Assembly: GCA_012519635.1 (NCBI GenBank)
Contig: JAAYPV010000119.1
Coordinates: 1 to 44,656, forward strand
Direction of reading: 5' to 3'
DNA length: 44,656 bases
Source: Clostridiales bacterium
GTDB taxonomy: Bacteria; Bacillota; Clostridia; Oscillospirales; Ruminococcaceae
The notes under the pieces are model-generated. The model was given only the letters and a program-made list of their open reading frames with translations, ran no database searches and was not told where the DNA came from. Position numbers and translations under genes: made by a program. Shown here piece by piece: positions 19,508-24,097 of this stretch. Position 1 is the first letter of the stretch. The number at the start of each line of letters is the position of its first letter.

Positions 19508-21046
19508 ATGAATAAAAACAGCATTGCAAAAGACACAATTATTCTAACTGCAATCCAGATTGCTCTACAAGCCCTATCATTACTCCTTAATATTTTCATA
19601 ACACGAAATCTAGGTACATCTGCAGTTGGAATTGCATCTCTCATATATACTTTCTTTGGATTTGCTACTGTAATTTCCACCGGAAATATATTTGTCTCAA
19701 CCAGCCGTTTTGTTTCTGAAGAAATCAGTAAGCCAAGTGGTTCTCCAAATAAAATATTTCTATACGCAATCTTTTTCTGTCTTTCACTTAGTATTTTCGT
19801 AAGCACAATCATATTTATATTTTCAGATTTTTTAGGTTTAAAAATACTGAAAAATCCTGATACCGTCATTTCTATAAAAATCATTTCCTTTTGCCTGCCT
19901 TTATCAGCACTTTCTGCATGTATAAAGGGATATTTTCATGCTTACAGAAAAATTCTCATCCCCTCTGCTGCTGAAGCACTGGAGTTTTTTATCCGCTCTG
20001 GTATAATAGCCTTTTTAACTGTATTCATGGTAAAATCAAATAAAATGACCATATTTTCCTCTATTGCGATAAGCATTTTAATTTCAGAAATCTTAAGCTG
20101 TTTATTTCTTATAATCTCATTTCTTCGTATAAAGTCAAGCGAAAATACATCAAATAAAGCAAGCATGGGTTTCATTAAATTTATTAGTCTTACTATTCCA
20201 ATTATTCTTAACAGCTACATAATCTCAATTTTAAGCAGTACAAATGAAGCATTACTTCCTCTTACCCTAAAGCAATTCGGAAATTCAACAGACCTTGCAT
20301 TAAGCCAATATGGAATTTTTGAGGCTATAATTCTACCTACAATCTTCTTTCCATCAGTAGTTTTATGTTGTCTATCATGTATATTAGTACCAGAAATATC
20401 TCGTGAAAGAATTGCTAATAATCATTTAAAGGTATCCTCCCTGATAGAAAAATCACTAAAACAAACCTTTGTTTTTTCAATATTTGTTGTAATCATTATG
20501 TTTACATATGGAAAAGAAATTGGTATAATGCTTAGCGAAGATACCTTAAGTGGTAATGCAATCGTAGTGCTTGCACCTGTTATTCCCTTTATCTACCTTG
20601 AAATTATCCTAGAAGGCATTTTAAAAGGGCTTGGAAAACACAGTTTTTCAACACTAAACTACCTTGTTGAATATATAATACGCATATCCGTTCTACTCAT
20701 TTGTGTACCTTTAATCGGTTTTTACGGTATTATTATTTCATACTTCGCAAGTAATATCATATGCAATATCAGCCGCATCATTATTATTACAAAAACAACC
20801 AATTATATCTTTAACTCAGTTGACCTAATATTAGTACCTGCCTTTTCAGCTGTTTTATCATGGCAGTTAGGAGCCGTTTTCCAAAAAATTATACCAATAT
20901 ATGTCCTTCCCACAGTCATTGAAATTGCCGTATACTCAGCATTCACAGGGATCATTTATATCTTTATAAATAAGGTGATATCATCAATGAATCAACACCA
21001 GCCTAAGATTAAAGAAAAGAATCTTCAACCTTCAAAACAATCATAA
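19508..21046 (+). CDS. SpoVB/MurJ-type polysaccharide or lipid-linked sugar flippase
   Basis: The 512-residue protein has about 12-14 membrane helices and the MOP-superfamily N terminus (NKNSIAKDTIILTAIQIALQ, then ITRNLGTSAVGIASLIYTF). The order of helices and the motif GILKGLGKHSFSTLNYLVEY are typical of SpoVB-like putative flippases of Clostridia. It probably moves a lipid-linked wall or spore-cortex precursor across the membrane; the exact cargo is not known. GGAGG lies before the ATG. It stands alone with its own promoter and terminator. Confidence 0.88.
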   Translation: MNKNSIAKDTIILTAIQIALQALSLLLNIFITRNLGTSAVGIASLIYTFFGFATVISTGNIFVSTSRFVSEEISKPSGSPNKIFLYAIFFCLSLSIFVSTIIFIFSDFLGLKILKNPDTVISIKIISFCLPLSALSACIKGYFHAYRKILIPSAAEALEFFIRSGIIAFLTVFMVKSNKMTIFSSIAISILISEILSCLFLIISFLRIKSSENTSNKASMGFIKFISLTIPIILNSYIISILSSTNEALLPLTLKQFGNSTDLALSQYGIFEAIILPTIFFPSVVLCCLSCILVPEISRERIANNHLKVSSLIEKSLKQTFVFSIFVVIIMFTYGKEIGIMLSEDTLSGNAIVVLAPVIPFIYLEIILEGILKGLGKHSFSTLNYLVEYIIRISVLLICVPLIGFYGIIISYFASNIICNISRIIIITKTTNYIFNSVDLILVPAFSAVLSWQLGAVFQKIIPIYVLPTVIEIAVYSAFTGIIYIFINKVISSMNQHQPKIKEKNLQPSKQS

Positions 21047-21219: not shown

Positions 21220-23052
21220 TTAATCAACAACAATTACTGTATCCGCTTGCTGATTGCCATTTGCGTTATTGTCAGTTGAAGAATTCGTTGCATCAGTAGT
21301 TATATCAGGATTCTCTGCATAGTATACAACCAATATATCTCCATTCTTTACATTAATTGTATTGCCAGGCTCTTTACTTGTTCTTGTAACATATCCGTTC
21401 TGATAATTAAAATTCTCCTCTGCCTTTTGCTCATATCTAATTCCTAAAGCAGCTAATTTTTGTAGATAATCATCAAGTTTTAATCCAGCAAAGCTAGGTA
21501 TAACAACATTTTCAGAACCCTTGCTTACCCATACCTTTACTGTGCTACCACTCGCAAATTTTTCGCCTTCCTGAATCTCCTGGTCAAAAATCAAGCCACT
21601 TTCATACTCATTATTATACTCATAAACAGGCTCAAGAGTAATCCAACCAGCATGAGCTGATTTTTGAATTTCAAAGGATTTTCCTATTAAATTAGGCATT
21701 ATACTATCTTTTTCTTCCATAGTAGTTGTAATTTCAGTACTTTCAGTAGTAATATCCTCAGTATTTGTTGTAACCATCACTACATTATCAAGTGAAGAAA
21801 AACTATCAACGCCTGATTTGATTTTTTCTGTATCATCTCCATTAAATACACTTAATAATATTGTTACTATAACCATAAGAATAGCCAAAAGTAATACTCC
21901 TATGATAACAGCAACCTTAATCCTCTCCAAAGAGCTTTGCTGTGTAACCTCTGTGCCCTCTACCTCATCCACATACATATCATCATAGTTAACTTCCGGA
22001 GCAATATACCTATTATTTTGCTTTTCTTCCTTCAATACTGCATCTAGCTTGCTTTTAGGTATTGTTATCGTTGCAGTATAGCCCTTTGCTTGATTATCAA
22101 CCTGCTCAAACAATCTTGTCACAAGCTCAGTTATGGTTTGTATTCTTTCTCTTCCAGCCAGCTTTAACCCATCCATTATTACCATTGATATATTCTTTGG
22201 AACATTTGTATTAATTTCATGAGGTGGGCATAAATTATCATTATCCATTCTGCTTAAGGCATCAGTTGGCATACAACCTGTCAGAATTCTATACAATACT
22301 GCACATATACTATATACATCAGTCCATGTTCCCTGTCTGCTGCTCAATGAATATTGCTCAGGTGCAGCATAGCCTTGAAATATTTCTGAAACCAATTCTG
22401 TATTTGCAGTTCTGACTGCTGAAACACAAAAATCCATAAGCTTTAATTCGCCCTTTGGTGTATAGTAAATTGTATTAGGGCTGATTCCCCTGTGAATAAT
22501 TCCAGTATTATGAATTATACCTAGAGTCGTAAACAGAGGTGGAAATAGCTTCGATACCTGTTCCCAGCTTAATTCCCCTGCATTTTCCTTTAGATAGTCA
22601 ATCAGGCTGATGGATTCTATATACTCATATATTGCATATGTTGTATTGTTTTCAGCAAAAAGGTCAAGTGCTGGCACAATATGACTTAATGTTCTCATCT
22701 TTGCCAATGACTTGTTAAGTTCAGTAAATTCAGCCATCAATGCCTTATATTGTGCCAAATGATTATAATTGACGCTTATTATGGGCTTGCCTTTTACCCT
22801 TGTGCAAAGGTTCTCGGGCATATATTCTCTTATAACTACTTTACAAGTAATGACAGTATCATACCCGATATAAGTAGCTCCTTCACCATTACTAATTAAC
22901 AATTTACCTACTAGATATCTATTATTTAGCATTGTTCCGGGTTTTATATAAGACGGTAAATAGGAAGTTCCCTCTTCATATCCACAATGAGGGCAAATTA
23001 AAGCTGTACCTTTTTTTTCCATGCAACCTAAGCATAGCTTATTTTCTCCCAT
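21220..23052 (-). CDS. Receptor-like protein kinase homologue with zinc ribbon and two PASTA domains, probable pseudokinase
   Basis: The 610-residue protein has an N-terminal zinc ribbon (Cys7, Cys10, Cys20, Cys23), a Ser/Thr-kinase-like domain (about 42-315), one transmembrane helix (about 380-405), a Thr-rich linker and two extracellular PASTA repeats starting at MPNLIGKSF and IPSFAGLKL. Three catalytic signatures are altered: the VAIK lysine position reads VIREY (Arg75), HRD reads HRG (Gly189 in place of the catalytic Asp), and DFG reads DFC. The glycine loop is also unusual (NGEGATY). It likely senses peptidoglycan but may signal by binding, not by phosphorylation. It has its own strong promoter. 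Confidence 0.9.
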   Translation of the reverse strand: MGENKLCLGCMEKKGTALICPHCGYEEGTSYLPSYIKPGTMLNNRYLVGKLLISNGEGATYIGYDTVITCKVVIREYMPENLCTRVKGKPIISVNYNHLAQYKALMAEFTELNKSLAKMRTLSHIVPALDLFAENNTTYAIYEYIESISLIDYLKENAGELSWEQVSKLFPPLFTTLGIIHNTGIIHRGISPNTIYYTPKGELKLMDFCVSAVRTANTELVSEIFQGYAAPEQYSLSSRQGTWTDVYSICAVLYRILTGCMPTDALSRMDNDNLCPPHEINTNVPKNISMVIMDGLKLAGRERIQTITELVTRLFEQVDNQAKGYTATITIPKSKLDAVLKEEKQNNRYIAPEVNYDDMYVDEVEGTEVTQQSSLERIKVAVIIGVLLLAILMVIVTILLSVFNGDDTEKIKSGVDSFSSLDNVVMVTTNTEDITTESTEITTTMEEKDSIMPNLIGKSFEIQKSAHAGWITLEPVYEYNNEYESGLIFDQEIQEGEKFASGSTVKVWVSKGSENVVIPSFAGLKLDDYLQKLAALGIRYEQKAEENFNYQNGYVTRTSKEPGNTINVKNGDILVVYYAENPDITTDATNSSTDNNANGNQQADTVIVVD

Positions 23053-23316: not shown

Positions 23317-24084
23317 TCATTCCAAGGAAAGAACCTTTGTTATATAGTCATCCTCAATTTCCTGTACTGCCATAACCTTGTCATCAAAATTCAACATAAT
23401 TGTTATATAATATGATTTTTCATCCTTTGATTTACTATCCTCATAATAATACTTATACTTGTAAATCTTTTTATCATCATTACTTCTTATGACCTGTATC
23501 GGTTTTAAATTAAGTATTTTCTCGACCTCTTCAATTGTAGCACCATCTTCAATTTTACTTACATCAATCTTCTTTTTAACTTTCATTCCGTTAACATTAT
23601 CCTTGAGTATTTTATAATTATAATATACCACTTCTTCCAGCTTTCCACTTTTATCCGAATAGCAAAGAATTACCCACTCCGGAACATTTACTCCATTAAC
23701 TTTTATAGTAGACTTGCTCTCATAAATATCGCTAAAATCTCCTAAATCATTAATAAAATCATAATCTGATAATTTCTTAAGCTTAATATCAGCGTTTTTT
23801 GCCGCCTTCTCAGCAGTTGAGCCTAGCTTTTCCGATAAGCTTATTGCTATTTTTTCACCATCATTTTTATTCAGTATTACAAAAATTACAAATACTGTTA
23901 TTATTATAAGTATTATTAATACCAAAGAAATTATGACTTTCAGCTTTTTCTTTGGTTTTTTCTCAACAGCAACAACCTCAATATTTCCGTTATTTACAGT
24001 CTCATCAGCTGTTAAATTTTTTTTAGATAATTTTAATTCAGACTTATTATTTTTTTCTCTTTCCTCTTTAACTTTCTTTCCCAT
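23317..24084 (-). CDS. Hypothetical single-pass membrane protein with a possible BamE/SmpA-like fold
   Basis: About 255 residues: a highly charged, Lys-rich cytoplasmic N terminus (1-45), one transmembrane helix (LKVIISLVLIILIIITVFVI), and an extracytoplasmic part ending with a segment GATIEEVEKILNLKP that recalls the SmpA/BamE-like repeats found in Gram-positive lipoproteins. This resemblance is weak. The start was set at the ATG at 24084 because its spacing to AAGGA is better than that of the GTG at 24093. It is the last of a six-gene run from murD and starts 14 bases after the PLP-enzyme gene. No function is assigned. Confidence 0.65.
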   Translation of the reverse strand: MGKKVKEEREKNNKSELKLSKKNLTADETVNNGNIEVVAVEKKPKKKLKVIISLVLIILIIITVFVIFVILNKNDGEKIAISLSEKLGSTAEKAAKNADIKLKKLSDYDFINDLGDFSDIYESKSTIKVNGVNVPEWVILCYSDKSGKLEEVVYYNYKILKDNVNGMKVKKKIDVSKIEDGATIEEVEKILNLKPIQVIRSNDDKKIYKYKYYYEDSKSKDEKSYYITIMLNFDDKVMAVQEIEDDYITKVLSLE

Positions 24085-24097
24085 TTTCCTCACATCC

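Follow-up and report, generated by a model that had tools for sequence, protein, structure and literature searches.

PASTA kinases are one of the main routes by which Gram-positive bacteria sense their cell wall, and the receptor kinases PrkC, StkP and Mycobacterium tuberculosis PknB share a cytoplasmic kinase fold, a single transmembrane helix and external PASTA repeats. Clostridia also encode zinc-ribbon Hanks-type kinases, an unnamed group with the catalytic loop HRDISPDN, whose catalytic motifs are intact in sequence and whose C-terminal domains vary. Seven bacterial pseudokinase families are set out in a 2025 review (PMC12599244). The pseudokinase domain of MviN/MurJ in M. tuberculosis (ActPs3) is membrane-linked and tied to wall synthesis, with a tail phosphorylated by the PASTA kinase PknB and read by the FHA protein FhaA (PMC12599244, PMC6180346), EssB/YukC, from Firmicutes, is a membrane pseudokinase with a scaffolding role in type VIIb secretion (PMC12599244), and the DYD family of actinobacteria and firmicutes carries DYD for DFG and Arg for the beta3 Lys, lacks the alphaC Glu and retains HRD and/or DFG (PMC12599244). 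In Clostridioides difficile, CD2148 is a second Hanks-type protein beside PrkC and modulates PrkC-dependent phosphorylation of CwlA; it is described as keeping the Hanks signature motifs, although its authors allowed that it might be a pseudokinase (PMC9674922).

The window, meaning the whole 44,656-nucleotide stretch of DNA that was analysed, encodes a protein with the kinase fold, transmembrane helix and PASTA layout of PrkC, StkP and PknB, but without catalytic residues, with an N-terminal zinc ribbon and with a kinase domain of another lineage. Zinc ribbon and kinase lineage are held in common with the HRDISPDN kinases, which differ in their intact motifs. MviN/MurJ is by contrast a flippase fusion that has no PASTA and signals through FhaA; a search of the window's genome (84% complete) turned up no FHA domain, and FHA-mediated readout is therefore unlikely. 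EssB/YukC, as described, has another architecture, lacking PASTA and zinc ribbon (PMC12599244), and CD2148 is also without PASTA (PMC9674922). With the DYD family the protein shares Arg at beta3 and the absence of the alphaC Glu, but DFC and HRG place it outside that family as there described. Compared by description, the published motif and taxon signatures of ActPs1-3, GLW and CP1 show no match in the accessible part of the review (PMC12599244). A clostridial zinc-ribbon PASTA protein was not found among the seven families in that part of the review, the primary 42-family atlas lying outside the comparison; in the review's full text 'HRG' and 'zinc' are absent and PASTA occurs in the reference list only (PMC12599244). 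No description of PASTA pseudokinases in Clostridia or Ruminococcaceae was found in the open-access literature. The features of the gene are as follows.

21220-23052, minus strand: whole gene, zinc-ribbon, pseudokinase, transmembrane and PASTA protein of 610 aa (ORF translation, Pfam, orthologues)
22981-23034, minus strand: N-terminal zinc ribbon CxxC-x9-CxxC (C7, C10, C20, C23), its four Cys residues kept in all or almost all of 80 homologues
22087-22935, minus strand: pseudokinase domain, residues ~40-322 (Pfam, motif tallies, tree)
22870-22896, minus strand: altered glycine loop ISNGEGATY, residues 53-61; N55 and E57 conserved in the pseudokinase clade, G and F in motif-intact zinc-ribbon kinases
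22828-22830, minus strand: Arg75 at the beta3 (VAIK) Lys position
22717-22719, minus strand: Leu112 at the alphaC Glu position
22471-22494, minus strand: catalytic loop HRGISPNT, residues 187-194, with Gly189 for the catalytic Asp and Thr194 for Asn (translation, alignment)
22426-22434, minus strand: DFC for DFG, residues 207-209 (translation, alignment)
21919-22086, minus strand: cytoplasmic linker with the short Thr-rich motif TATITIP (motif search; putative function)
21847-21918, minus strand: transmembrane helix, residues ~379-402 (hydrophobic run; helix 374-403 in a low-confidence model)
21322-21702, minus strand: two PASTA repeats, 21520-21702 and 21322-21507 (Pfam)

The first-pass annotation of this DNA had described an open frame with an intact zinc ribbon, a membrane helix and two PASTA repeats, and this anatomy holds: the reading frame starts with ATG and runs uninterrupted for 610 aa with zero internal stops on the minus strand (a strand not given in that annotation), the C7-C10 and C20-C23 pairs and the hydrophobic run at ~379-402 are in place, and two stretches match PASTA in Pfam with 61.7 bits. 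The Pkinase match covers residues ~40-320 and scores 68 bits, above the cut-off of 31.7. Structure prediction with AlphaFold2 from a six-sequence input gave a mean pLDDT of ~38 both for the full length and for the kinase domain alone, and promoter and terminator scans around the gene yielded nothing to speak of beyond chance.

Translation and alignment recovered every motif change that had been called, namely HRG, Arg at the VAIK Lys (VVIR, R75), DFC and a changed glycine loop, and added two further losses that had been missed, alphaC Glu to L112 and catalytic-loop Asn to T194, along with the change of the VAIK Ala to V73. The DFC motif keeps its Asp (D207) and has lost the Gly. Pseudokinases are generally recognised by loss of at least one of the beta3 Lys, HRD Asp and DFG Asp, and here the HRD Asp and the beta3 Lys are both gone; of the properties of a PASTA Ser/Thr kinase, the transmembrane helix and external PASTA repeats are present, and HRG, VVIR and DFC stand in place of the catalytic Asp, beta3 Lys and DFG. 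Residues of the kinase fold are retained (H187, APE Glu232, F-helix D245 and R303), as are H164, E208, D220 and R280 (PKA numbering) in the aligned pseudokinases. Another Asp aligning at the catalytic position, which the annotation had named as evidence against its own reading, was looked for in the alignment and is absent.

Homologues were compared in f1, the window's own family, and in f23 and f24, further families of the same order; the named relatives are Clostridiales and Ruminococcus, from metagenome-assembled genomes. The catalytic Asp is absent in 124 of 125 aligned homologues and present in all 27 motif-intact zinc-ribbon kinases. A first set of 96 f1 proteins carries Gly (84), Ala (10), Ser (1) or His (1) at this position, but these proteins were labelled as pseudokinases by the HRD residue itself and their 96/96 is description only. 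Independently of that residue, 19 further f1 proteins were selected, and the Asp is missing in 18; it is also replaced in 9/9 f24 proteins and in the single f23 protein. Apart from PrkC and five zinc-ribbon paralogues (L118, L120), all listed homologues belong to the pseudokinase class and form one clade, which supports the class independently. The loss of the catalytic Asp is family-wide and not due to chance.

That the protein is an active kinase with an unusual active site is very improbable. One divergent member, L191 (G125:C1, 1134-2345, minus strand, from a 1.1 Mb genome), does have Asp at the HRD position (HTD), and the DFG Asp is kept in 14 of the 96 f1 proteins, the window's among them. 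However, L191 lacks the beta3 Lys and DFG as well as PASTA, and the alignment shows no catalytic base in any other member and no neighbouring residue that has replaced it. The DFG Asp is lost in the other 82, and the nearest relative of the window's protein has Glu there.

An atypical enzyme, in which the pocket binds a nucleotide or other ligand for a different chemistry or as a ligand switch, is doubtful. SelO and SidJ are precedents for such different chemistry, and in f1 a basic beta3 residue is left in 88/96 (R 59/96, K 29/96; K 27/27 in motif-intact zinc-ribbon kinases) together with a conserved glycine loop of its own, NGEGxxY. Against this, the alphaC Glu (L in 82/96; E in 27/27 motif-intact kinases) and the catalytic Asp have been lost, as has the DFG Asp in most members and the catalytic-loop Asn in many, and nearly all of the 96 carry some other residue in place of the VAIK Ala. 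The substitutes differ from protein to protein and are often bulky or charged, which is not the pattern of a new active site under conservation.

Conservation of N55, E57, K103 and R214 in f1 pseudokinases and not in motif-intact zinc-ribbon relatives suggests a new constrained role in binding or folding. Positions equivalent to R10 and D76 in the back-to-back dimer interface of PknB are mostly kept in f1 (R45 in 88/96, D130 in 67/96); they are not pseudokinase-specific, since many motif-intact zinc-ribbon kinases keep them too.

A maximum likelihood tree of 75 kinase domains, with PrkC as the outgroup, places the f1, f23 and f24 pseudokinases in one clade (100/98) that is sister to the motif-intact zinc-ribbon kinases, and the pseudokinase domain groups with the latter on a 100/100 branch and not with PrkC. 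L161, from another family and with HGN, forms a long branch at the base of the clade, and its placement is unsure. Alignment with PrkC/StkP and the clostridial zinc-ribbon kinases had been proposed with the first-pass annotation, and its idea of a PASTA kinase homologue stands for the transmembrane and PASTA layout, whereas the kinase domain comes from the zinc-ribbon (HRDISPDN) lineage rather than from PrkC/StkP. The sister position indicates that the zinc ribbon was inherited with this lineage. PASTA was matched in 80/80 full-length homologues scanned and in 2 of 10 motif-intact zinc-ribbon kinases, both from one genome. Given this distribution, the tree position and the zinc ribbon, the protein is not a decayed PrkC. 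Wider samples gave close homologues in f23 and f24; outside f1, f23 and f24 the matches examined were zinc-ribbon kinases of the HRDISPDN type, bar one PrkC. As a separate observation, L120 (G063:C18, 2693-12529) comprises three tandem zinc-ribbon kinase genes with HRD and DFG intact, two of them with 6 and 4 PASTA repeats plus List_Bact_rpt and RCC1 repeat domains.

A protein search of 148 f1 genomes gave matches in 144, some of them PrkC-type. Using a profile from 80 homologues at E <= 1e-105, exactly one pseudokinase match was found in 130/148 genomes and in 104/110 good genomes; six good genomes gave no match at this threshold, and inspection of three of them (G053, G081, G125) showed that these do carry the gene. 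It is present even in genomes of 0.7-1.0 Mb. The muropeptide or lipid II sensing put forward in the annotation is a putative function: PASTA repeats are general among the full-length homologues scanned, but two members from reduced genomes, L115 and L191, lack them and keep the pseudokinase and membrane helix, indicating that the cytoplasmic domain can persist without PASTA. Ka/Ks against a same-genus homologue (Nei-Gojobori) was 0.02 for the kinase domain and 0.06 both for PASTA and for the gene as a whole, values that are rough as Ks is near saturation, yet far below 1, and that point to strong purifying selection. A decaying gene or a recent lineage-specific loss would fit the lesions in several catalytic motifs, but is contradicted by the open frame, the Ka/Ks of 0.06, the retention in a single copy and the one ancient origin, and is hardly credible. 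The earlier view of a selected pseudokinase is upheld by this near-universal presence, the single clade and the loss of the Asp, and the best reading is that the gene would be an ancient, near-core one, a kept part of signalling and not a broken gene.

The window's genome also encodes a canonical PrkC with HRDIKPQN, DFG, VAIK and three PASTA repeats, behind a PP2C phosphatase gene, as found by the genome search for an active PASTA kinase and its phosphatase that the annotation had suggested. The NCBIfam model NF033483 scores above its cut-off in 93/100 f1 genomes; the pseudokinase itself reaches 157.4 bits against a cut-off of 450 and falls outside that family. The presence of PrkC in the same genomes implies that the dead receptor works in cells that also hold a live one. 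The neighbourhood analysis of homologues showed no gene-neighbour link to prkC or a phosphatase. Elsewhere in the window's genome, L005 (G000:C121, 937-2418) encodes a 493-aa protein that matches PASTA but not a kinase and carries a CxxC pair resembling a zinc ribbon at its N terminus.

In the cytoplasmic linker, a Thr motif (T-x-T-[IV] or NTAV[YF]) occurs in 53/125 homologues against 7.7 expected from shuffles, and in 0/26 motif-intact zinc-ribbon kinases. It may be a phosphorylation site, here and in the homologues, and is treated only as a lead because the pattern was picked after inspection and the sequences are related.

The same neighbourhood analysis found no universally conserved neighbour of the pseudokinase gene, its context varying widely. 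The gene upstream is the best candidate for a partner.

23317-24093, minus strand: candidate partner, a single-transmembrane protein with an extracytoplasmic domain

A homologue of this gene occurs in 24/148 f1 genomes. In 13 of these, from many genera, comparison of its match positions with those of the pseudokinase put it immediately upstream and in the same orientation (G000, G085, G096, G117, G106, G071, G108, G049, G113, G065, G063, G035, G143). The product matches zero Pfam families above cut-off; most of its relatives start with a zinc ribbon, which the window's copy lacks. A SpoVB/MATE-like flippase gene in convergent orientation (19508-21046) offered another possible partner, on the model of MviN/MurJ, but was rejected: in the neighbourhood analysis it is adjacent only within the same genus, and elsewhere one homologue lies three genes off. 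The adjacency of 23317-24093, the layout of zinc ribbon, membrane helix and outside domain common to the pseudokinase and most relatives of that protein, and the precedent of EssB/YukC as a pseudokinase scaffold in type VIIb secretion (accessible part of PMC12599244) would fit a PrkC-independent receptor scaffold, forming an envelope complex with the 23317-24093 protein or other zinc-ribbon membrane proteins. This is rather unlikely: at the threshold used, a partner homologue in 24/148 genomes beside a near-universal pseudokinase would not be obligate unless it has diverged past detection.

We favour, with slightly better than even confidence, a receptor pseudokinase of single origin that works without catalysis, most likely in the PrkC/PP2C wall circuit and coupled to its PASTA part. 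The protein is bitopic: the zinc ribbon and the dead kinase fold face the cytoplasm, a single helix crosses the membrane, and the two PASTA repeats lie outside. It arose once from a motif-intact zinc-ribbon kinase before f1, f23 and f24 split. Signalling would proceed by binding, without phosphotransfer; the PASTA repeats would convey the condition of the wall or of wall precursors, and the pseudokinase domain would act as scaffold or allosteric partner. More tentatively, the protein could, in place of the live PrkC, carry one wall-sensing input and allosterically tune PrkC at the membrane, the two forming a live-plus-dead pair of receptors.

For genes of this kind an active kinase product should not be taken for granted, and the family provides a defined set for testing bacterial pseudokinase function. 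The retention of a single-copy dead relative beside a live kinase across nearly a whole clostridial family suggests that part of this signalling is non-catalytic.
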